Below are positions 28,267 through 47,661 of a DNA stretch of 47,661 nucleotides, piece by piece (position 1 is the stretch's first letter; the number at the start of each line of letters is the position of its first letter). The position numbers and the translations under genes are program-made. Below the pieces are notes generated by a model that saw nothing but the letters and a program-made list of their open reading frames with translations, made no database searches and was not told where the DNA came from. The stretch is from Streptococcus mitis 17/34 (GTDB taxonomy: Bacteria; Bacillota; Bacilli; Lactobacillales; Streptococcaceae), in the NCBI GenBank assembly GCA_000430305.1, contig ASZZ01000014.1, positions 1-47,661 on the forward strand. Reading direction: 5' to 3'.

Positions 28267-28878
28267 TTATAAATAATATAAGAGTGGCCAAGCATTGTAA
28301 AACATGTGAACTAGAGTAGAAACCCATAAGTTTTGACTCTTTTTATAAGCAAAGCCCAGCAACAAGCCCCCGACCAGATAAAAAATAAACGAAGGGACAT
28401 TAGAAGGTCCATGCATGAAAGAAAAGAGAGAGGAAGTTAGCACAAGCCCTAACCAAGAATTGTCAAAAACCGCACCTTGAAGAAGTCCTCTGAAAATGAG
28501 TTCCTCCTGGATGGGGCCAAAAACTGAGGAAGTCAAAATCAAAGACAGAGAAATTCCTCTGCTGACTTCCGCCAAGTGTTGAACTCCTGCGCCAGAAGAA
28601 ATAGCAAAGAAATGAATATAAACCAGCGTCTCAAGAACGCTTAGAAGAAAGATTGCAATGAAAAGTAAAAGGTCTTTCTTGCTTAACATTCCAAAAGAAA
28701 TCATTTCAAACTTTCTAGCATAAGCAACACTCAGAGAGGTTACTAGAAGACTTACAATAATCAATGCAGATTCATTTTGAAAAAAATCCCCATGGTTAAT
28801 CGTATAAGGAACTGTAATGACGATTATTAGTACTAAAAATCCAAAACAAAAGGCATGAAATTTATCAAAGAACTCCAT
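28267..28878 (-). CDS. CPBP (CAAX) membrane protease-family protein of the blp locus
   Basis: A 203-aa protein with about six hydrophobic segments and the CPBP motifs EELIFRGLL (near 143), FSFMHG (near 168) and HMFYN (near 192). Such proteins occur in many Blp-type loci as immunity or processing factors, and the pneumococcal counterpart lies at the same distal end of the locus. It is the last gene of the operon driven by the BlpR box at 30306-30334. Whether it protects against a specific peptide is not visible. Confidence 0.82.
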   Translation of the reverse strand: MEFFDKFHAFCFGFLVLIIVITVPYTINHGDFFQNESALIIVSLLVTSLSVAYARKFEMISFGMLSKKDLLLFIAIFLLSVLETLVYIHFFAISSGAGVQHLAEVSRGISLSLILTSSVFGPIQEELIFRGLLQGAVFDNSWLGLVLTSSLFSFMHGPSNVPSFIFYLVGGLLLGFAYKKSQNLWVSTLVHMFYNAWPLLYYL

Positions 28879-28947
28879 AAAATTATCCTCCTCACCAAAC
28901 AGACTTCCCTACAAGCCATCCTTAAGCTCTAACCTTTCCAAAACAAA

Positions 28948-29157
28948 CTATTTTAGTAACCAAAATCCAACCACATAGCCAGCTCCTAAGAATATAGCCA
29001 TAAAAGCTAGCATGGGATTCAGAAAATAAAAAATCACAACAGATACAAAGGTTAGCACAAAAACATTAAAGGCAATGGTGTCAGAAGCCAAGACTAGAAT
29101 ATAGGGTGTCAACCAGTCTAAGGTTTTTGAATCTAGGAAAAATAAGTGTTTATACAT
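28948..29157 (-). CDS. blpZ: BlpZ-like small membrane protein
   Basis: A 69-aa protein with two hydrophobic spans (PYILVLASDTIAFNVFVLTF, then PMLAFMAIFLGAGYVVGFWL) and a strong GGAGGAGG ribosome binding site. It matches the small gene between the immunity genes and the CPBP gene in pneumococcal blp loci (blpZ), probably immunity-related. The symbol is by position and recall. Confidence 0.7.
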   Translation of the reverse strand: MYKHLFFLDSKTLDWLTPYILVLASDTIAFNVFVLTFVSVVIFYFLNPMLAFMAIFLGAGYVVGFWLLK

Positions 29158-29214
29158 GATGACCTCCTCCTGCCAGTCTTTAGACTAGTCCCAGATTAAT
29201 AAGAAAACTCTTCC

Positions 29215-29619
29215 CTACTTTTTATAATACTTCAAGCCCCACATGAGCAGAAGCATGATAAGCAAGCAGAGAATGGCACCAATATAGGCAATCAATTGTT
29301 GATAGAATTCTCCTGCTGTGATACCTCTATACAAACAAATAATAGACATAAAACCTGTCAAGCCGATATACATGAGTTGATTGGTTCTAGGACTAACCAA
29401 ATCATCATCTTCAAACTCTCTTATCCTCATCTCCCTAGTGAGGTAAACAGTGACCAAAATAGAAGCCAAGTTAATAATCACTAAAAGAAATTGGAAAACC
29501 AAGGAAAAATTTAAAAACTGACGAGATAGGAATAGATAAGTAGAGACAAGTAAGGGCAACTGACCTAGGAACAATCTCGCAAGGAAGATGGTCTGTTTTT
29601 TAAAAAATATTTTTTTCAT
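29215..29619 (-). CDS. Blp immunity-type membrane protein, copy 1 of 3
   Basis: A 134-aa four-span membrane protein (FLARLFLGQLPLLVSTYLFL; EFEDDDLVSPRTNQLMYIGL; C-terminal GLKYYKK). The start at 29619 has GGAG 6 bases upstream and aligns with the paralogue at 32592. The longer in-frame ATG at 29655 overlaps the previous gene. It looks like the BlpX group of small immunity proteins. The two full copies are nearly identical along their length, and a broken third lies at 31642-31835. Confidence 0.75.
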   Translation of the reverse strand: MKKIFFKKQTIFLARLFLGQLPLLVSTYLFLSRQFLNFSLVFQFLLVIINLASILVTVYLTREMRIREFEDDDLVSPRTNQLMYIGLTGFMSIICLYRGITAGEFYQQLIAYIGAILCLLIMLLLMWGLKYYKK

Positions 29620-29647
29620 TGCTTTCTCCATTACAATTAAATGACAT

Positions 29648-29968
29648 CTAATCATTTTCTAAAATTTGATAACTTTTATGAAATGTTTTAGCAGAAACAA
29701 CTCTATGATTGGTGATATCTATATAATCACCTGGATAACCAAGAACATACATCCCATAACCAGCGAATCCTCCTCCAACTGTTCCAACTAGACCAAACTT
29801 GATATTCGTTTCGAGAGAAGTGTTAAGACCTGCCATTAGAATGCGCACATGATTATCCAACCAAATCATATAATTTTTTTGAAAAGCTTCCTCTACCCAA
29901 CTTGGTTTAGGAGTTGCTTGACCAATTTCCCAAACATCAACAATTTGATTCCCATATTTTGCCTTCAT
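29648..29968 (-). CDS. Unrecognised protein of the bacteriocin operon, phage-like C-terminal motif
   Basis: A 106-aa protein immediately downstream of the bacteriocin gene (14 bp, AAAGGAT site). The N-terminal half (KAKYGNQIVDVWEIG...WVEEAFQKNY), a central glycine-rich segment (VGTVGGGFAGYG) and the end PGDYID...TFHKSYQIL resemble the small phage-protein pattern in which PGDYI is followed by an F-x-x-x-Y-E/Q tail. There is no clear membrane span or leader. It could be a cognate immunity or accessory factor. The function is not known to me. Confidence 0.6.
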   Translation of the reverse strand: MKAKYGNQIVDVWEIGQATPKPSWVEEAFQKNYMIWLDNHVRILMAGLNTSLETNIKFGLVGTVGGGFAGYGMYVLGYPGDYIDITNHRVVSAKTFHKSYQILEND

Positions 29969-29982
29969 AGCTTCAATCCTTT

Positions 29983-30210
29983 TTAAATACCATTACATGA
30001 GTTTGGAGTTCCCCCTATACCATAAGGACCACATGGTTTTGAAAAATGTATAATAGGTCACTTACCATTTAATTGATCCAAAGTTGGAGAAGGTGCTAGC
30101 CCACCCAATAAACCAGCAACCATATCTCCCCAACCTCCGAAACCTCCTTCAACTTTCGCAAGCATCTCAGTATCCATCATTTCAAATTGTGACATCGTTT
30201 TTGTATTCAT
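29983..30210 (-). pseudogene. Double-glycine class II bacteriocin precursor interrupted by TGA
   Basis: The ATG at 30210 opens a typical Blp leader (MNTKTMSQFEMMDTEML, then AKVEGG) cut after residue 23. The mature region starts FGGWGDMVAGLLGGLAPS and runs to LNGK, where a TGA (30060-30058) stops it at 50 aa. The same frame continues for 24 codons, PIIHFSKPCGPYGIGG and TPNSCNGI, to a TAA at 29983. The downstream half has bacteriocin-like composition with two cysteines, so the TGA looks like a nonsense change, plausibly TGG to TGA. A BlpR-controlled promoter lies upstream. Confidence 0.75.
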
Positions 30211-30270
30211 AACGAATACCTCTTTTTTATTTTTAATTTTAATTGTTATCCTGTTGCAATTGGCAATTTT

Positions 30271-30334
30271 AGTATAACACTATTTGTTAAAGTTTTTCAT
30301 ACAAATCTTGAATTATCATCAAAACATCTTAAAT
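30271..30334 (-). promoter_or_regulatory. BlpR box and promoter of the bacteriocin module
   Basis: Half-sites ATTTAAGA (30334-30327) and ATTCAAGA (30313-30306) start 21 bp apart. A TATACT -10 (30276-30271) starts 37 bp after the second half-site. Confidence 0.85.
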
Positions 30335-30368
30335 TACTCAAAGAGTACAATCTTCCCAATCAACTAAT

Positions 30369-30406
30369 AAGAAGTGAATAATATTAAATTCCATTATTCA
30401 CTTCTT
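30369..30406. terminator. Hairpin between blpY and the bacteriocin module
   Basis: Perfect 14-bp arms AAGAAGTGAATAAT/ATTATTCACTTCTT. There is little T-run on the minus strand, so termination of the blpY transcript is likely but not certain. The remaining DNA between 30211 and 30437 holds only the BlpR promoter. Confidence 0.55.
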
Positions 30407-30437
30407 AAAATCGATAATTATTTTTAATCTACTATTT

Positions 30438-31127
30438 TTAGCTAAATACCCTGTGTAAAAAAGTCAGCAAAAATGGTAATGTTGCGAAAATATTATTGAT
30501 CACATGCACCGTATAGGAAGGATAAATGCTCTTTGTATAGCGAGTCAAACTAGCAAAGATGATGCCAAATGTTGCAAAGACGAAGATATCTAACAGACTA
30601 GGCAGGCTTGAAAAATGAGGAAGAGCAAATAAAATGGAAGGAAGGAGCAAATCAAGGCCAAATCTCGAATGCTTAAAAAAGGCGTGTTGCAGTAATCCTC
30701 TATAAATCAGCTCTTCCATAAGTGGAGTCAGAAAGAACAGGGTTATATAGATACCTAGCTCAGCAAAGTTGGTCCCACTATAACCGATCAATACAGCCCA
30801 ACCTTCAGCAGTTGACTGAACATGTTTAGCTGCCTGAACGTTAAAAGAGATATAGAGCACTACCACTAGTACTGTCAAAATCGAATACCAAAGCCATTTT
30901 TTTCTCGGAATGCGAAAAAGATAACCATGGCCTGTCTTAACTAGAATCCAAATCATGACTCCGCTAAATAGCAAACTCAAGATATTTTGAATCCAGACGA
31001 AATTGCCAATCTGGGAAGAAAATTGCCAATAATTTTGAACAATAAGCGTCAGCTGAGAAAGACCAAATACGAAAAATAAGTAAGAGAAGACTGCACTTAT
31101 TTTGAAAACAAGCTGATACTTTTTCAT
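30438..31127 (-). CDS. blpY: BlpY-like CPBP membrane protein
   Basis: A 229-aa multi-span CPBP-family protein with motifs EELIYRGLL (near 140), FALPHF (near 170) and HVINNI (near 210). Length and sequence character match pneumococcal BlpY, an immunity-associated protein. Its ribosome binding site is GGGAGGA, and it lies 48 bp downstream of the 127-aa membrane protein, likely in the operon started by the BlpR box at 32139-32167. Confidence 0.78.
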   Translation of the reverse strand: MKKYQLVFKISAVFSYLFFVFGLSQLTLIVQNYWQFSSQIGNFVWIQNILSLLFSGVMIWILVKTGHGYLFRIPRKKWLWYSILTVLVVVLYISFNVQAAKHVQSTAEGWAVLIGYSGTNFAELGIYITLFFLTPLMEELIYRGLLQHAFFKHSRFGLDLLLPSILFALPHFSSLPSLLDIFVFATFGIIFASLTRYTKSIYPSYTVHVINNIFATLPFLLTFLHRVFS

Positions 31128-31175
31128 AGAAATCCTCCCTACTATGACCTACACTTGCCAGGCTCTACTGCAAGA

Positions 31176-31559
31176 TTAAGAAGACAGTTTGTTCTTTTTA
31201 AGGCTAACCTGACTACTAGACAATAGATATATTAAGGCATTAAAGACAATGAAAATATGTCCATAGAATAAAATCAACCTCACATCCAAACCAAGATAAA
31301 GTTTGACCATCAAAAAGATGAGCAAAAGAATTTGAAACCATACCGTTTTTCCAAAAATAAATTTAAAGCGGTTTTGAATGTCTACTTCCTTGATTTTTAC
31401 CGCCACCCCTTTATTAGCAAGAATGAAAACGCCTGCTTCAAACAAGCCACTGTAGAGAACAATCCAACCTATCGATACATTAGAGATTTGTAAAAATGTC
31501 CCTAAAAGAATATCCAACATACTACTCAAGAAAATAACAAGAAATAATCTGTATTTCAT
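31176..31559 (-). CDS. Small membrane protein of the blp locus
   Basis: A 127-aa protein with four predicted spans (LFLVIFLSSMLDILLGTFL; GWIVLYSGLFEAGVFIL; VWFQILLLIFLMVKLYLGL; LILFYGHIFIVFNALIYLL). The start at 31559 has GGAGGT 8 bases before it, and the alternative ATG at 31574 is part of that site. Position among immunity genes suggests a protective role. I do not recognise a named family. Confidence 0.7.
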   Translation of the reverse strand: MKYRLFLVIFLSSMLDILLGTFLQISNVSIGWIVLYSGLFEAGVFILANKGVAVKIKEVDIQNRFKFIFGKTVWFQILLLIFLMVKLYLGLDVRLILFYGHIFIVFNALIYLLSSSQVSLKKNKLSS

Positions 31560-31641
31560 ATTAAATACCTCCATTCATTTATTTCACGAACTTTTTAATA
31601 GAGCCTTCTACTAAAATATCCTGATAAAATAGGAAAGAAAG

Positions 31642-31835
31642 CTACTTTTTATAATACTTCAAACCCCACATGAGCAGAAGCGTGATAAACAAGTAGAGAA
31701 TACACCTATATAAGCGATTAGTTGTTGATAGAATTCTGTTTCTGAAATACCTCTATACAAACAAATAATAGACATAAAGCCTGTCAAGCAGATATACATG
31801 AGTTGATTGGTTCTAGGACTAACCAAATCATCATT
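31642..31835 (-). pseudogene. Broken copy of the blp immunity gene (copy 3)
   Basis: DNA closely matching the 3' half of the genes at 29215 and 32188, from DDLVSPRTNQLMYI to the YYKK stop. The N-terminal half is absent, and around 31702-31715 a one-base loss puts the two parts of the remnant in different frames. Its upstream edge abuts the 59-aa small gene, marking a recombination joint. Confidence 0.8.
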
Positions 31836-32010
31836 TACTTATATTTAAGAGCATCTCTTTTATGTTAGTGTATGTTAACACTAAAAAACAAGTTAGGCCA
31901 ATAATATTTAAAATGAACAATAACGGGGTTAAGTCTCTAAAAAAATTATCCACTGACACTACAAGAAATACTATACATATTATAGTCGAAACTATCTTTT
32001 TCTTATCCAT
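31831..32010 (-). CDS. Small membrane protein directly behind a BlpR promoter
   Basis: A 59-aa protein, MDKKKIVSTIICIVFLVVSV, then LTPLLFILNIIGLTCFLVLT, with two membrane spans and no double-glycine leader. The AAAGGAG site is 9 bases from the ATG. It is the first intact gene after the BlpR box at 32139-32167 and ends at the joint with the broken immunity gene. It may be a small immunity protein or a Blp-associated orphan. Family unknown. Confidence 0.65.
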   Translation of the reverse strand: MDKKKIVSTIICIVFLVVSVDNFFRDLTPLLFILNIIGLTCFLVLTYTNIKEMLLNISK

Positions 32011-32103
32011 AATTATTTACTCCTTTCCTAACAAATCCAGATTATCAATCAAGAGCGATTTTTAACAGAATGTAGCAGCATCCGTTGCAACTTTGACAAT
32101 TTC

Positions 32104-32167
32104 AGTATAGCACTATTTGTTAAAGTTTTTCATCCAAATCTTAAATTGTCATCGAGACATCTTGAAT
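32104..32167 (-). promoter_or_regulatory. BlpR box and promoter of the 59-aa/127-aa/blpY operon
   Basis: Half-sites ATTCAAGA (32167-32160) and ATTTAAGA (32146-32139) are 21 bp apart, with a TATACT -10 (32109-32104) at 37 bp. Confidence 0.85.
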
Positions 32168-32187
32168 TGCAAAAACTGCATTAGCCT

Positions 32188-32592
32188 CTACTTTTTATAA
32201 TACTTCAAACCCCAAATGAGTAGAAGCATAATAATCAAGCAGAGAATAGCCCCAATGTAGGCAATTAATTGCTGATAGAATTCCCCTGCTGTGATACCTC
32301 TATACAAACAAATAATAGACATAAAGCCTGTCAAGCCGATATACATGAGTTGATTGGTTCTAGGACTAACCAAATCATCATCTTCAAACTCTCTTGTCCT
32401 CATTTCCCTAGTGAGGTAAACAGTGACCAAAATAGAAACCAAGTTAATAACCACTAAAAGAAATTGGAAAACTAAGGAAAAATTTAAAAACTGACGAGAT
32501 AGAAATAGATAAGTAGAGACAAGCAAGGGCAACTGACCTAAGAACAATCTCGCAAGGAAGATGTTCCGTTTTTTAGCAAGAAAAGTTTTCAT
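32188..32592 (-). CDS. Blp immunity-type membrane protein, copy 2 of 3
   Basis: A 134-aa near-twin of the protein at 29215-29619. Differences concentrate in the first ten residues (MKTFLAKKRNIFLARLF against MKKIFFKKQTIFLARLF) and a few conservative changes. It has four hydrophobic spans and the shared acidic EFEDDDLVSPRTNQ loop. It overlaps the 54-aa gene by 4 bp (ATGA), so the two are translated together from the BlpR promoter at 32811-32874. Confidence 0.75.
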   Translation of the reverse strand: MKTFLAKKRNIFLARLFLGQLPLLVSTYLFLSRQFLNFSLVFQFLLVVINLVSILVTVYLTREMRTREFEDDDLVSPRTNQLMYIGLTGFMSIICLYRGITAGEFYQQLIAYIGAILCLIIMLLLIWGLKYYKK

Positions 32593-32753
32593 CTCTTTGC
32601 TCCTTTCTTTTTAGTTAAAGCAAAATAGATCATAACCGCAATCATATAGGCTATGGTATAAAATAGATGATACCAAATACTCTCCCTAAGCGGATAAAGA
32701 AGGATAGACATGATCAGATACAGAACGAAAATAATCAGTATTTTTTTCTTCAT
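32589..32753 (-). CDS. Small two-span membrane protein of the blp locus
   Basis: A 54-aa protein, MKKKILIIFVLYLIMSILLY, then WYHLFYTIAYMIAVMIYFAL, and a basic tail. AGGAGG lies 7-8 bases upstream. It is first in its module, coupled to immunity copy 2. It resembles tiny Blp immunity proteins in size and topology but is not assignable to a family. Confidence 0.7.
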   Translation of the reverse strand: MKKKILIIFVLYLIMSILLYPLRESIWYHLFYTIAYMIAVMIYFALTKKKGAKR

Positions 32754-32810
32754 AAGATTTCCTCCTAAATGTATGCTTTATCTTAGTTGAGCTAGAACCT
32801 TTACACTGCT

Positions 32811-32874
32811 AGTATAGCACTCATTTTATCCTTGGAACACTGAAATCACGAATGGTCATCAAAACATCTTGAAT
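32811..32874 (-). promoter_or_regulatory. BlpR box and promoter of the 54-aa/immunity-2 module
   Basis: Half-sites ATTCAAGA (32874-32867) and ATTCGTGA (32853-32846) are 21 bp apart, with a TATACT -10 (32816-32811) at 37 bp. Confidence 0.85.
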
Positions 32875-32884
32875 TGTAAAAAAT

Positions 32885-32916
32885 TTAAAAAAGCAAGCAT
32901 GAAAAACATACTTGCC
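32885..32916 (-). terminator. Terminator of the 39-aa gene module
   Basis: Minus-strand GGCAAGTATG/CATGCTTGC hairpin followed by TTTTTTAAATTTTTT. It is duplicated at 33362-33393. Confidence 0.85.
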
Positions 32917-33045
32917 CTTTACACCATATTGATACCAACTTAATTTGTAGATTTTTTATCCTGCTATCACATATCATTTTAACAGGCGAAACAATATTAA
33001 AGAAACTCCACTGTAGATAAAACTAGCGATAAAAAATCTTTTTAT

Positions 33046-33165
33046 CTAATTAGATCTATCTTTATTCTTCTTTGGAGATTTTAAAAATTTTTCCCTAATT
33101 AAATAAGTAATAAAAGAAATAAGCATACTAACAACAAAAACAATAAGAAAACTTTTGAAATCCAT
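33046..33165 (-). CDS. Very small single-span protein of the blp locus
   Basis: A 39-aa protein, MDFKSFLIVFVVSMLISFIT, then YLIREKFLKSPKKNKDRSN, with a GGAGGT site 5 bases upstream. A TAG ends it, but the same frame stays open for 23 further hydrophobic codons (KRFFIASFIYSGVSLILFRL) before a TGA near 32977. It could therefore be a truncated two-span protein, or a second tiny gene whose start codon is lost. It follows a dead bacteriocin leader. Confidence 0.55.
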   Translation of the reverse strand: MDFKSFLIVFVVSMLISFITYLIREKFLKSPKKNKDRSN

Positions 33166-33195
33166 AATTACCTCCAAGTACACAAGCTCAAGTCT

Positions 33196-33240
33196 TTAAG
33201 CAAGCATAATAGCCAATTGTAACATTGTTTTTGCATTCAC
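33196..33240 (-). pseudogene. Relic of a bacteriocin leader peptide gene
   Basis: In the position of a bacteriocin start after a BlpR promoter, a GTG opens VNAKTMLQLAIMLA followed by TAA. It aligns with the leader at 30210 (MNTKTMSQFEMMDTEMLA) with an internal deletion and no double-glycine or mature peptide. The start is degraded from ATG to GTG. Confidence 0.6.
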
Positions 33241-33287
33241 GAGGAATACTCTTTTTATTTTCGTCCTATTGCAACCTTAATAAGGTT

Positions 33288-33351
33288 AGTATACTACTAT
33301 TTTTTAAAGTTTTCCATCCAAATCATAAATGGTCATCAAAACCTCTTGAAT
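33288..33351 (-). promoter_or_regulatory. BlpR box and promoter of the relic-bacteriocin module
   Basis: Half-sites ATTCAAGA (33351-33344) and ATTTATGA (33330-33323) are 21 bp apart, with a TATACT -10 (33293-33288) at 37 bp. Confidence 0.85.
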
Positions 33352-33361
33352 TGTTAAAAAA

Positions 33362-33393
33362 TTTAAAAAGCAAGCATGAAAAACATACTTGCC
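33362..33393 (-). terminator. Terminator downstream of the 118-aa gene
   Basis: Same GGCAAGTATG/CATGCTTGC hairpin as at 32885, ending in TTTTTAAATTTTTT. It separates the regulatory operon from the effector modules. Confidence 0.85.
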
Positions 33394-33443
33394 CTGGGGG
33401 AAACTTGACAATGTGAAAATACAAAATAGAAAACTACTCACCC

Positions 33444-33800
33444 TCACTTCCGTATGTTCTCATATATTCTCATGATCGCAACAAGGATAGCAGCTGTCCC
33501 ACTTGCCAAAGCGATAAGGGTAATGATAATGTTGAGGATTTCAGGCGTACTCCCTATTCTGTTGATAAGACGGAGTAGGGATATAACTGTCAACTGAATC
33601 AGGAGTATTGATTCTACTCTTACCATTGAAGTAAGTCTGTTTTCAACTGCATATAAAAAGGCTGGTAGCAAAACACAAGCTATAGCAATCACAAACAGAT
33701 TGCTCCCCGTTTCTTCTCCCTTGTTCACCACGGAAATCATGAGAAGATTCGATGCTATGATTAACGTAGAACAGATGATAAAAAAGGATTTCTTATTCAT
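33444..33800 (-). CDS. Membrane protein replacing blpC/blpAB behind blpH
   Basis: A 118-aa protein with four hydrophobic spans (FFIICSTLIIASNLLMISVV; LFVIAIACVLLPAFLYAV; ILLIQLTVISLLRL; IIITLIALASGTAAILVAIM). It is third in the blpR-blpH operon, 68 bp after blpH, where known loci continue with the pheromone and exporter genes. It has no peptidase, ATPase or leader features. Function unknown, possibly immunity. Confidence 0.65.
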   Translation of the reverse strand: MNKKSFFIICSTLIIASNLLMISVVNKGEETGSNLFVIAIACVLLPAFLYAVENRLTSMVRVESILLIQLTVISLLRLINRIGSTPEILNIIITLIALASGTAAILVAIMRIYENIRK

Positions 33801-33868
33801 TTAATATACCTCGCATACTATAGTATTTTAATTGATGACTTTGGGCAGTACTTCTTTCAACAAATCTT

Positions 33869-35218
33869 CTAATCATCAACTGACATCGAGTGAACTGTTA
33901 AAACCTGACGAAAGACTTGATTTTGGCAGGTGGTATTGAGACTGGTATTGGGATGGCTTTCGACAATCTTCATGACGGTATAGAGACCAACTCCTCTCTC
34001 CTCCCCTTTAGAACTGGCTCCAAAGGAGAAGATTTCAGAAATGTCTATACCTTCTTCTTTGATAGAATTTTCAATGATAAAGGTCTCCTGTGCCCCATTT
34101 TTTAAAAAGGCAATTGAAACATGAGGTTGACTGACCTCTACACTGGCTTCAATAGCATTGTCACAAAGGATAGACACAATGGTTAGAAAATCAAGCAAGC
34201 TCATCCCCTCTACCTGAATCTCCTCAGGAACTTCGACATTAAAGACAATCTTCTTATCTCTGGCTTTTAGAAATTTTCCTGCTAGAAGACTTTTGAGGGC
34301 ACGGTCTCGAACATTCACCAATCTGCCCAGGTCATATTTATTGTCCTGCAATTTTTCACTAGAATCCTTTAAGACCGAGTCGTAGACCTCTTTTATCTGC
34401 TCCATATCCTCCTCTTCAATGCCCAGACGTAAACTAGTCAAGAGGTTGCTATAATCATGCCGAAAACTCCGTACTTCCTTGTAAAGTTCCTCTATATGCC
34501 GACTATAGCGTTCCATATCTCTGTAGCGCAAGGTCTGCTCTTGGTCCAATCTCTCATGGAGTTTGTCCTTCAAATAGGTATCCAATTTCTTGATAACCCC
34601 CATAAAAAAGAGCAAGTAAAAGACTAGGATGAGATGACGAACAGTCGTTGATTGAATACCTTGTTCATATTCAAAGAAAGACAGACTTTGCATCACTAGA
34701 TAGTAAGCCCCCATTATCCAGTTAATCTTAGTCAGGGACTTTTGAAAAGCTTTATCTAGAATCTCCTTTCTTAAGTTAGTGAAATCATAGTCCAACCATT
34801 TCAAAAAGACTAAAACTATGAAGCAAACGAATATCGTCATCAATAGAAAGATAGGATTGCTATCTTTATCTACAATTTCTTGTCCCAAAAATGGAAGCAC
34901 AAAATAGAAGACCCCTCTATAAAAGAGATTCACCAATATCATTGGAAAGAGACCATAAAAGAAGAGGAGTTTTTTAGGAAGCCCTCTTAACAGTAAGAGA
35001 GACAAGCCTATACCGTACAAGGGTTCCATAAAATAAAATAGGAAACTATCTCCTACCATATAGCCAATCATTAAAAAAACAAAGGCCAACAGTATCTTAA
35101 AAAGAAAGGCTTTAAAAATCCTCTCAAAAGTGAGAGCAATTCCATCCACCTTAAAGAAAATGACAATTTCTAGTCCATGAGTAACAAGTGTATACAATAA
35201 TATCCAAGTAATATTCAT
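33869..35218 (-). CDS. blpH: Bacteriocin-locus sensor histidine kinase BlpH
   Basis: A 449-aa HPK10-type kinase. About seven hydrophobic segments fill residues 1-215 (peptide-sensing domain). The H-box is in SFRHDYSNLLTSL (His near 255), the N-box in DNAIEAS (near 350) and the G-box in SSKGEERGVGLYTVMKI (near 410). It lies 13 bp after blpR. In pneumococcus BlpH recognises the peptide BlpC through variable N-terminal residues, so the peptide recognised here cannot be deduced. Confidence 0.9.
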   Translation of the reverse strand: MNITWILLYTLVTHGLEIVIFFKVDGIALTFERIFKAFLFKILLAFVFLMIGYMVGDSFLFYFMEPLYGIGLSLLLLRGLPKKLLFFYGLFPMILVNLFYRGVFYFVLPFLGQEIVDKDSNPIFLLMTIFVCFIVLVFLKWLDYDFTNLRKEILDKAFQKSLTKINWIMGAYYLVMQSLSFFEYEQGIQSTTVRHLILVFYLLFFMGVIKKLDTYLKDKLHERLDQEQTLRYRDMERYSRHIEELYKEVRSFRHDYSNLLTSLRLGIEEEDMEQIKEVYDSVLKDSSEKLQDNKYDLGRLVNVRDRALKSLLAGKFLKARDKKIVFNVEVPEEIQVEGMSLLDFLTIVSILCDNAIEASVEVSQPHVSIAFLKNGAQETFIIENSIKEEGIDISEIFSFGASSKGEERGVGLYTVMKIVESHPNTSLNTTCQNQVFRQVLTVHSMSVDD

Positions 35219-35231
35219 AAACTCTCCTAGC

Positions 35232-35969
35232 TCAGTGTAAGTTATTGATAGCCTCAGACACTTCCCTGACCTTATAACGCGCGATCATACAGCTTCCACC
35301 ATTGGGAAAGTAAAGAAGTTTTTCTTTCTTATCCAAACGAACCACATTGGCAGGATTGATGAGAAAAGAGCGATGGCACTGCAAGAGACGGGATTCCTGC
35401 TTGAAAACCTCCTCTAGACTCGCTGTAAACTCCAGCCTGTCAGTCTTGGTGTATAGAATGACACGATGGGCTCTAGGCGACGTTTCGAGATAGTAAACCT
35501 CTTTAAAAGGGTACTGGAATTGGGCAAATTTTGATTTAAAGTAAAAGCAATCTTCCGCCAGACTTTTACTGTCTTGACTATTGGCATAGAGAAGGGCTGT
35601 CTCGATACGAGATTCAAACTCCTCTGCTGACAAGGCCTTATCAATGTAGTCCAGAGCAGACACTTGGTAGCGAAAGGACAGGGGCATAAACTCCGAGTGA
35701 GTTGTCACAAAGACGATGAGAGCATACGGATCCCGATCTCGAATCTTTCTAGCCACTTCCAGCCCCTTCATCTCTTCATTTCGAATCTCAATATCCAAAA
35801 AGAATAGCTGATGCGCCCCCTTCTCATGCACCTCTGCCAGCAGTTGATCTGGCTTACCAAAGACCTCAAAAGAACTGGGAGTAATCTGATGTTCCTTCAA
35901 GAGTTTTTCAATCGTCGTTTCAATCCTAGCCTGTTGGGAAAAATCATCTTCTAAAACAAATATTCTCAT
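35232..35969 (-). CDS. blpR: LytTR response regulator BlpR
   Basis: A 245-aa regulator. The receiver domain (1-125) carries the acidic pocket LEDD and phospho-acceptor FFLDIEIR near 59, and the LytTR DNA-binding domain (about 145-240) includes SRLLQCHRSFLINPANV. It pairs with blpH. Its own promoter carries a BlpR box, implying positive autoregulation. No separate blpS gene is present between it and blpT. Confidence 0.92.
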   Translation of the reverse strand: MRIFVLEDDFSQQARIETTIEKLLKEHQITPSSFEVFGKPDQLLAEVHEKGAHQLFFLDIEIRNEEMKGLEVARKIRDRDPYALIVFVTTHSEFMPLSFRYQVSALDYIDKALSAEEFESRIETALLYANSQDSKSLAEDCFYFKSKFAQFQYPFKEVYYLETSPRAHRVILYTKTDRLEFTASLEEVFKQESRLLQCHRSFLINPANVVRLDKKEKLLYFPNGGSCMIARYKVREVSEAINNLH

Positions 35970-36006
35970 CTTCTTACTCTCCTTGTTTCAATTTCTTCCT
36001 AAAAAG

Positions 36007-36071
36007 AGAATAGCAAAAATACTCTGACACAAGCCCACCAAATCTTAAATAGGCCTTCAAAGCTCCTGAAA
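36007..36071 (-). promoter_or_regulatory. BlpR box and promoter of blpRH
   Basis: Half-sites TTTCAGGA (36071-36064) and ATTTAAGA (36050-36043) are 21 bp apart, with a TATTCT -10 (36012-36007) at 38 bp. Confidence 0.75.
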
Positions 36072-36138
36072 GGTAGCTTGTTCCTCAAATAAGCATGATA
36101 ATCTTACAACTATTTTATCATAAAATCTTAACAGTACC

Positions 36139-36202
36139 ATTCAGGAAATTTCAAGTACAATTAAAGATTTTATGGTGAAAAAGGAGATAAAAGTGATAGA
36201 CT
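36139..36202 (+). promoter_or_regulatory. BlpR box and promoter of blpT
   Basis: Half-sites ATTCAGGA (36139) and ATTAAAGA (36160) are 21 bp apart, with a TAGACT -10 (36197-36202) at 37 bp. The region 35970-36264 otherwise holds only this and the divergent blpRH promoter. Confidence 0.85.
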
Positions 36203-36264
36203 GACAATATCAAAACACAGTTGCTAAAATCAAGACTGGCACCCAGATTAAAGGAGGAATTCTC

Positions 36265-36594
36265 ATGACAGACACAGACCCCATCAAAAGAGCTCAGACT
36301 TTGATTGCTGACTTAAACAAAGCCTACCAAGCATGCAGACAGGCAACAGCTGACGACGTCCGCTTTCAGGAACAATTAAACTCTATTCTTGGCTTTCTAG
36401 CCAAGGCTGAGACAGTGGATAATCGAGTCTTGATTGAACTGGAAAAATTTTACCAGACTTCCAGTCTTCTCATGGGACTCAGCGCTCTCAATCCCGATGC
36501 TCCTACTCGCGCCGCTTGGCGGGCCTATGACCGCTTCCACTTTGACCAAGTCAAGACCAAGTTGAGTCTCTACGGACCAACCATTATCCTGTAG
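36265..36594 (+). CDS. blpT: BlpT
   Basis: A 109-aa cytosolic protein (MTDTDPIKRAQTLIADLNKA, then WRAYDRFHFDQVKTKLSLYG) matching BlpT, which sits divergently from blpRH at the edge of pneumococcal blp loci. Function is unsettled. It has a strong AAAGGAGGA site and its own BlpR-type promoter, so it should respond to the same signal. A terminator follows. Confidence 0.88.
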   Translation: MTDTDPIKRAQTLIADLNKAYQACRQATADDVRFQEQLNSILGFLAKAETVDNRVLIELEKFYQTSSLLMGLSALNPDAPTRAAWRAYDRFHFDQVKTKLSLYGPTIIL

Positions 36595-46783: not shown

Positions 46784-47661
46784 TCACTCTTCTTCCTTCC
46801 GTTTTCGTGAAATGAGAAGTCCACCAGTCATAGCTGCTAAGAGAGCTACAACAAGTGATGTATTTGATTTCTCTGTTCCTGTATTTGGAAGTTCTCGATC
46901 TTTATTTATTGTAGTTTCAGATGTTGGCGTTCCCTCTGACATTTCATTAGCACTACCGTCGTAATCTGGCTGAGCTGGCATTTCTTCTGGAATACTATTT
47001 ACACTACCTTCATAGTCTGGTTGAGCTGGGGTAACTTCTGGAATGCCGTTAACACTGCCTGTGTAGGCTGGAATTTCTACAGTTGGTGGCGTAATCAAGT
47101 TACCTTCACCATCCGTACTACTTGTGCCCACTGGATCGGTATACGCTGGAACTTCTACAGTTGGTGGTGTAATGACATTGCCTTCGCCATCCGTACTACT
47201 TGTGCCCACTGGATCGGTATACGCTGGAACTTCTACAGTTGGTGGGGTAATAACATTGCCTTCGCCATCTGTACTACTTGTACCTACTGGATCGGTGTAG
47301 GCTGGAACTTCGACACTTGGTGGCGTAATCAAGTTACCTTCACCATCCGTACTACTTGTGCCTACTGGATCGGTGTAGGCTGGAATCTCTACAGTTGGTG
47401 GGGTAAGCAAGTTGCCCTCGCCATCCGTACTACTTGTGCCTACTGGATCGGTATAGGCTGGAACTTCTACACTTGGTGGTGTAATAACATTGCCTTCGCC
47501 ATCCGTACTACTTGTGCCCACTGGATCGGTATAGGCTGGAACTTCTACACTTGGTGGTGTAATCAAGTTGCCTTCACCATCCGTACTACTTGTGCCCACT
47601 GGATCGGTGTAGGCTGGTTGACTTGGAGATACTTCTGGAATACCGTTTACACCAGAGTCTT
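46784..47661 (-). CDS. C-terminal part of a repeat-bearing LPXTG cell-wall protein (partial)
   Basis: The frame is open to the window edge, so only about 292 residues are seen. Seven tandem 26-residue repeats (GTSSTDGEGN, then LITPPSVEVPAYTDPV or close variants) are followed by three shorter degenerate units (NGIPEVTPAQPDYEGSV type). The sorting signal is LPNTG, a hydrophobic span (SLVVALLAAMTGGLLI) and the RKRKEEE tail. Sortase A would link it to peptidoglycan, with the Pro/Asp-rich repeats acting as a wall-spanning stalk. The functional N-terminus is outside the window and the protein cannot be named. Confidence 0.88.
   Translation of the reverse strand, partial: DSGVNGIPEVSPSQPAYTDPVGTSSTDGEGNLITPPSVEVPAYTDPVGTSSTDGEGNVITPPSVEVPAYTDPVGTSSTDGEGNLLTPPTVEIPAYTDPVGTSSTDGEGNLITPPSVEVPAYTDPVGTSSTDGEGNVITPPTVEVPAYTDPVGTSSTDGEGNVITPPTVEVPAYTDPVGTSSTDGEGNLITPPTVEIPAYTGSVNGIPEVTPAQPDYEGSVNSIPEEMPAQPDYDGSANEMSEGTPTSETTINKDRELPNTGTEKSNTSLVVALLAAMTGGLLISRKRKEEE
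47054..47617. repeat. 78-bp tandem repeat array in the LPXTG gene
   Basis: Seven full copies of a 78-bp unit. Units differ by a few synonymous and conservative changes (L/V-I/L, S/T, V/I). An incomplete copy borders the array at the window edge. Confidence 0.9.

Follow-up and report, generated by a model that had tools for sequence, protein, structure and literature searches.

A pheromone-less and exporter-less blp locus in Streptococcus mitis 17/34, probably a receiver-only, defence-type allele

Streptococcus mitis, a streptococcus of the mouth and throat, conserves the blp regulator and sensor genes blpRH while having lost blpC and the ATP-binding cassette (ABC) transporter genes, and two of three S. 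mitis strains had no bacteriocin genes and had kept immunity genes (PMC5729180). According to PMC6722419, 20% of S. mitis have blpC and 4/20 strains have both blpA and blpB intact, and the cassette lies in the same genomic context as in the locus studied here. Further work, in which BlpC escaped detection in isolates from several species, S. mitis among them, asked about a substitute peptide from elsewhere and described an S. mitis strain with two BlpRH systems (PMC9638458). A defensive role has been proposed for loci without bacteriocin genes, and the blpC-less loci iblp5.1, iblp5.2 and blp6 were induced by BlpC encoded at a different locus in their own strain (PMC11921387). Two BlpC peptides are known from S. 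mitis G22 (PMC13059744), and given these last three reports second blp loci are no novelty. Here we analysed the blp locus of S. mitis 17/34, which lies on the minus strand between approximately 36.0 and 28.3 kb of a 47,661-nucleotide stretch (assembly GCA_000430305.1, contig ASZZ01000014.1; the whole stretch is hereafter called the window), and which, within the mitis group, we read as probably a receiver-only, defence-type blp allele.

Like the S. mitis clusters of PMC5729180 and PMC6722419, the locus retains blpRH and immunity genes, has lost blpC and the transporter genes, and is poor in bacteriocins, so the arrangement is already published for this species. What is added here is comparative evidence for a maintained state: those two papers cover 3 and 20 S. 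mitis strains, and to them the present analysis adds the genome-wide absence, the junction, the ratios of nonsynonymous to synonymous change (dN/dS), the regulator boxes and the sensor exchange described below. The locus also resembles iblp5.1, iblp5.2 and blp6 in having no blpC; unlike the strains carrying those loci, which also hold blp1 with blpC (PMC11921387), the genome of the window yielded none. A search by title and start of abstract, with subscription journals mostly outside its coverage, found no paper on selection on BlpH in transporter-less loci or on sensor exchange with such loci. The regulatory part of the locus comprises the following features (ORF, open reading frame).

36265..36594, plus strand: blpT, 109 amino acids, divergent from blpR; an open frame, in the same place in relatives at 71-99% identity, with no NCBIfam match.
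35232..35969, minus strand: blpR, LytTR response regulator of 245 amino acids, intact (Pfam LytTR 3.3e-17, Response_reg 5.4e-10).
33869..35218, minus strand: blpH, pheromone-sensor histidine kinase of 449 amino acids, intact (Pfam HATPase_c_5 4.4e-14, GHKL domain; the nearest NCBIfam model, AgrC, is matched below its cut-off).
33801..33868, no strand: junction, the site of blpC-blpB-blpA in other loci; no BlpR box here.
33444..33800, minus strand: ORF118, small membrane protein of 118 amino acids in the blp immunity-type region, directly after blpH.

An earlier note on this stretch had described blpT, blpR and blpH as intact and blpC, blpA and blpB as replaced after blpH by a 118-residue membrane protein. 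Both descriptions were borne out, since all three genes are open and complete and ORF118 occupies 33444-33800; the comparison with relatives gave no match to blpS at the locus either. Contig C14, which the window spans in full, belongs to a 1.87 Mb assembly in 51 contigs that is 92.3% complete, and all absences claimed for the genome apply within this assembly, with about 8% missing. BlpC, sought both as a protein and with the NCBIfam BlpC model, had no match in this genome, while both searches found it in 23/23 genomes with BlpA beside BlpH, which served as the positive control. Across the assembly the C39-peptidase family matched twice, both times outside the contig of the window, in agreement with the note's claim that the window holds no peptidase-bearing ABC exporter. 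One of them (C5:32855) is an intact 719-residue exporter, ComA-like, with ComB-like and purC-like genes after it, as named by position and resemblance, and the other (C3:153933) is a blpA remnant with three stops. Within this 92.3%-complete assembly, an own blp exporter or pheromone encoded elsewhere was thus not found. The genes comC, comD, comE and comAB, likewise named by position and resemblance, are all open; the note was right that ComAB elsewhere could export peptides, but the searches yielded neither BlpC nor an intact blp bacteriocin as its cargo.

The absence was far from specific to this strain. Among 284 genomes of the genus, 62 carry a BlpH of the window's type (sensor identity of at least 70%; next best 44%), and BlpA lies beside it, judged by eye from coordinates, in 23 and not in the other 39. 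For BlpA, three candidates per genome were scored and matches are listed from approximately 1060 bits upwards, so that partial BlpA is invisible to this search, the BlpC model serving as an independent check. Five of the 39 (G089, G093, G227, G139 and G108) encode BlpA in a second locus, four at 99% identity and G108 at 86%. Matches to the BlpC model occurred in 28/62 genomes, exactly these 23 plus five, with that of G108 below the curated cut-off. Consequently, 34/62 genomes with this BlpH, including that of the window, show neither BlpC nor full-length BlpA. This count and the shared loci described next rule out a strain-specific loss, and the note's picture of a peculiar strain did not hold; losses in S. 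mitis had, moreover, been published in 2017 and 2019.

We then compared 43 loci from one scan of named genomes with BlpH, 16 of them complete (ABC+) and 27 without blpA-blpB beside blpH (ABC-less; 28 with the window). In each of the 16 complete loci blpA-blpB runs convergent to blpH, and each yielded a readable blpC. ORF118 is the next recognised gene after blpH in 27/27 named ABC-less loci; it was found further downstream in 5/16 complete loci, most of those stretches being cut. In 26/27 named ABC-less loci the junction is the same, with an altered C-terminal tail of blpH and ORF118 within approximately 100 bases. Given these 26 other loci and a window free of N, an assembly join at 33800-33869, which would have undone the earlier claim of absence, can be ruled out. 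The altered tail exists in three diverged versions, and the shared junction is therefore probably old. A single loss event accounts for most of the ABC-less loci and not for all, because L020 and G100 have lost blpABC yet keep the ABC+ type of blpH end, which implies at least one further loss. The sequence just upstream of ORF118 in the version of L036 recurs before ORF118 in five complete loci (51-63 bases, 87-90%), and the ABC-less state may therefore be the derived one, by a deletion between blpH and ORF118.

The retained genes look constrained. As pairwise means taken without a significance test, dN/dS of blpR was 0.047 in ABC-less loci (n=26) versus 0.069 in the 16 complete loci, and that of the BlpH kinase part 0.074 (n=25, with the window and L020 included and L052, L053 and L056 left out) versus 0.112. 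The mean synonymous divergence (dS) of these comparisons was 0.32-0.40 (0.32-0.36 in the ABC-less loci), and none of the 26 ABC-less blpR copies had an internal stop. ORF118 had a dN/dS of 0.25 and no internal stop in 28 copies, and ORF134, a further membrane protein of the locus, a dN/dS of 0.12 in 22 ABC-less loci with an internal stop in one of them. The low ratios point to a receptor that may be kept by selection without an own signal, even though not all ABC-less genomes are free of a second one (34/39 are) and recombination may contribute.

Synonymous differences along blpH and blpR point to recombination in the sensor in some pairs. Twelve chosen pairs were compared in detail, not all showing exchange. 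In the ABC-less/ABC+ pairs L040/L046, L050/L046 and L024/L038, residues 1-150 differed at synonymous sites by only 0.00-0.06, whereas the kinase differed by 0.25-0.46 and blpR by 0.26-0.33. The window and L020, with its ABC+ type of blpH tail, gave sensor values of 0.02 and 0.06 versus 0.32-0.37 elsewhere, and the sensors of L041 (ABC-less) and L045 (ABC+) are identical. Given the low sensor and high kinase and blpR values, recombination seems to have exchanged sensor segments between certain ABC-less loci and loci of the complete type, in a direction that we infer. The earlier note had proposed typing the sensor against known BlpC partners; the comparison was made, and no BlpC-linked match above 85% identity exists in the sample. 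Indeed, the window's sensor type, present in 8 genomes at 89% identity or more, was not seen beside BlpC in the sample. An attempt to read the window's pherotype off its nearest sensor met BlpC identities anywhere from 0.15 to 0.93 among BlpC-linked sensors at 0.80-0.85 identity.

Downstream of ORF118, the locus carries the boxes and candidate effectors listed here.

33320..33351, minus strand: BlpR-box-like promoter element 1 (pattern search).
33046..33168, minus strand: small immunity-type protein, PncF-like, 40 amino acids (NF042929 PncF family, E 1.1e-9, 38.1 bits, below the cut-off of 45).
32843..32874, minus strand: BlpR-box-like element 2 (pattern search).
32589..32753, minus strand: ORF54, small membrane protein, present in relatives; no NCBIfam match.
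32188..32592, minus strand: ORF134, membrane protein, paralogue of ORF146 (29215-29655); no NCBIfam match.
32136..32167, minus strand: BlpR-box-like element 3 (pattern search).
31831..32010, minus strand: ORF59, small membrane protein, compared with relatives; no NCBIfam match.
31176..31574, minus strand: ORF132, membrane protein; no Pfam or NCBIfam match.
30438..31127, minus strand: CPBP (Rce1-like) membrane protease, immunity type (Pfam Rce1-like 6e-17).
30303..30334, minus strand: BlpR-box-like element 4 (pattern search).
30058..30210, minus strand: double-glycine class II bacteriocin gene, prematurely stopped (Bacteriocin_IIc 1.7e-7).
29648..29968, minus strand: ORF106, next after the bacteriocin, immunity candidate; same cassette in L038, L045, L046, L057 and L058; no Pfam or NCBIfam match.
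29215..29655, minus strand: ORF146, membrane protein, paralogue of ORF134; no Pfam or NCBIfam match.
28948..29157, minus strand: blpZ immunity protein (NF042932, 144.6 bits, cut-off 50).
28267..28878, minus strand: CPBP membrane protease at the downstream end (Pfam Rce1-like 5.1e-22), in the position of pncP.

Because the box pattern was derived from the four sites of the window itself, these match it perfectly by design, and its tests are specificity across the genome and presence in other loci. At up to 3 mismatches the genome of the window holds four boxes, all in the blp locus, and at up to 4 mismatches at least one box was found in 28/28 ABC-less loci, the window included. The reverse box of the blpA promoter, by contrast, is present in 16/16 complete loci versus 1/28 ABC-less ones. 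The bacteriocin frame behind element 4 ends after 50 amino acids at an early stop, while its relatives in L038, L045, L046 and L058 reach a common C-terminus. In the ABC-less locus L057, which has the same cassette, the stop lies inside the leader, unlike that of the window; different stops have therefore hit the bacteriocin in two ABC-less loci. ORF106 and ORF146 are open in the window and match those of L057 at 98% and 95%. A leader search, which unusual leaders can escape, found no intact blp-type bacteriocin in any of the 25 ABC-less loci (the window plus 24 named ones) whose sequence reaches the downstream flank; it also caught ORF118, BlpZ and ORF106 by chance, and these were discounted by eye. 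Behind element 1, at 33200-33250, a double-glycine leader stump noted by eye is probably a bacteriocin remnant. After ORF59, a partial second copy of the C-terminal half of ORF134/ORF146 (31659-31826) is likely a recombination scar.

On one side the locus is flanked by dnaK-dnaJ, a gene for a HIT protein and an ABC pair, and on the other by an APH-like gene, trmB, rimP, nusA and infB (named by eye), and the two nearest flanking genes also adjoin blp in relatives. It thus sits where a pneumococcal-type blp locus is found, between the dnaJ-side ABC genes and the APH-trmB-rimP side. Besides these flanks it shares with the pneumococcal locus, whose order is blpT-S-R-H-C-B-A plus a bacteriocin-immunity region, the BlpR/BlpH two-component pair, the BlpR boxes, BlpZ and the CPBP genes. 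Unlike it, the window is without blpS, the BlpC pheromone gene and the BlpAB exporter genes, and behind its boxes the sole bacteriocin found is truncated. Pneumococcal blpA-mutant 'cheaters', with a mutated exporter gene, reportedly respond and keep immunity while not exporting (said to be the work of Son et al. 2011); compared with these, the window has wholly lost its pheromone and exporter genes and its intact bacteriocins as well. At 46784-47599, heading to the contig end, the window also encodes the highly repetitive C-terminus of a surface protein with an LPNTG-type anchor.

Two further blp-like systems stand in the same genome. Contig C3 carries blpS-, blpR- and blpH-like genes, a convergent blpA remnant and a 99-residue immunity-like protein (L010:8309-12413, G000:C3), between tat-like genes and a DHH-like phosphoesterase named by eye, and its blpH is split by a frameshift. 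Seven of nine other loci with this BlpR type (L107-L115) read a full 441-residue kinase, and L112 and L115 have a different 381-residue frame in its position. Relatives of this BlpR at 91% or more occur in 10/284 genus genomes including that of the window, with two copies in G088. Upstream of comAB, a double-glycine peptide, a split histidine kinase and a response regulator (L009:8798-11022, G000:C5) form what, judged by sequence, is a third ComCDE/Blp-like system whose kinase is broken by a frame change. Four kinases of the BlpH family were found in this genome, of which only BlpH and ComD are whole, the other two being broken. Among the relatives, second blp loci in L094-L097 encode a BlpA 99% identical to the canonical one and a BlpC ending in TPLKLRTTFKP, and they sit in genomes whose canonical locus is without blpABC.

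Gene content, junction, boxes, the truncated bacteriocin, the absence of BlpC and BlpA, low dN/dS and, in some pairs, sensor exchange can be read from the sequences, and they fit a receiver-only, defence-type locus better than decay. In such a locus, BlpH would sense the BlpC-type pheromone of other strains, or in some relatives that of a further blp locus within the cell itself, and would phosphorylate BlpR, which would bind the four promoter boxes and switch on the small membrane proteins and the two CPBP proteases. These would protect against the bacteriocins of neighbours, and with no BlpC and no intact blp bacteriocin found the cell would neither signal nor attack via this locus. Ligand binding, activation of BlpR and protection by the effectors are the steps that we infer. 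The earlier idea of a listener that turns on protection accordingly stands in part, with indirect support from the boxes, the open immunity-type genes, the truncated bacteriocin, the low dN/dS and the sensor sharing. Alternatively, the canonical locus could be the effector arm of a two-locus division of labour, its pheromone and exporter coming from a second blp locus that has since decayed here. Cross-activation between the blp loci of one strain, as reported in PMC11921387, would suit this, and blpC-blpB-blpA stands in a second locus in 5/39 genomes without BlpA beside BlpH, namely in 3/8 with the window's sensor type (at least 89%) versus 2/31 others; however, the remaining 34/39 have no such exporter or pheromone anywhere, so most cases cannot be explained in this way, and with the window's second blpH frameshifted and its blpA a remnant we consider the division of labour unlikely. 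That the BlpR promoters answer to ComE or some other regulator, with BlpH not the real input, seems very improbable: the competence genes are open, and interplay between competence and blp is reportedly known in pneumococcus (PMC4739721, PMC4739728), yet this would leave the low dN/dS of BlpH and the exchange of its sensor domain unexplained.

Several observations weigh against the receiver-only, defence-type reading, and some of them would suit degradation in progress, whereby the locus lost its use together with blpABC, bacteriocins went first, and regulators and immunity genes are to follow. The blpH gene is broken in 2/27 named ABC-less loci (L053 and L056) versus 0/16 complete ones, with L052, interrupted by an assembly gap, as a third incomplete copy. 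Relatives of ORF106 have an internal stop in 8/10 ABC-less loci where they were extracted, so effectors are not all kept, and truncated or remnant genes exist in the window itself. The sensor part has a dN/dS of 0.32 in ABC-less versus 0.25 in complete loci, which could mean relaxed constraint, and intact copies could be refreshed by recombination from complete loci. On an unrooted sensor tree of 43 rows, L056 excluded, 9 changes are required to place the ABC-less label, 7 or more of them forced by well-supported branches, versus a mean of 13.2 with shuffled labels; the label is spread yet clustered, and exchange is therefore limited. The BlpC-linked sensor nearest to the window's in the sample has 85% identity, and this receptor may for that reason have no available ligand. 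Finally, the immunity roles assigned to the effectors are suggested by family resemblance. Still, degradation would have to contend with the low dN/dS values that BlpR and the kinase part of BlpH show, the absence of internal stops in 26 blpR copies at a mean dS above 0.3, a junction shared by 26 loci with diverged tails and hence probably old, and boxes retained in 28/28, and we regard it as rather improbable.

Taken further than the receiver-only, defence-type reading of this one locus, it is possible, and we propose it tentatively as somewhat short of an even chance, that the ABC-less locus is a long-lived, selectively maintained receiver-only allele across the S. mitis group, mostly with one junction, whose BlpH sensor domains are imported from producers and so track the changing pheromones of neighbours. 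Who produces, who cheats and who merely listens while immune is a classic question of bacterial social behaviour, and among genomes with this BlpH more have a receiver with no signal of their own than have both, at 34/62. The parts of ABC-less loci can be compared with those of complete loci of the same group, which makes eavesdropping directly testable, and the question matters for the coexistence of commensal streptococci, both among themselves and alongside bacteriocin producers. If the proposal is true, the majority of strains would eavesdrop without signalling, turning on immunity only once an enemy has given itself away.

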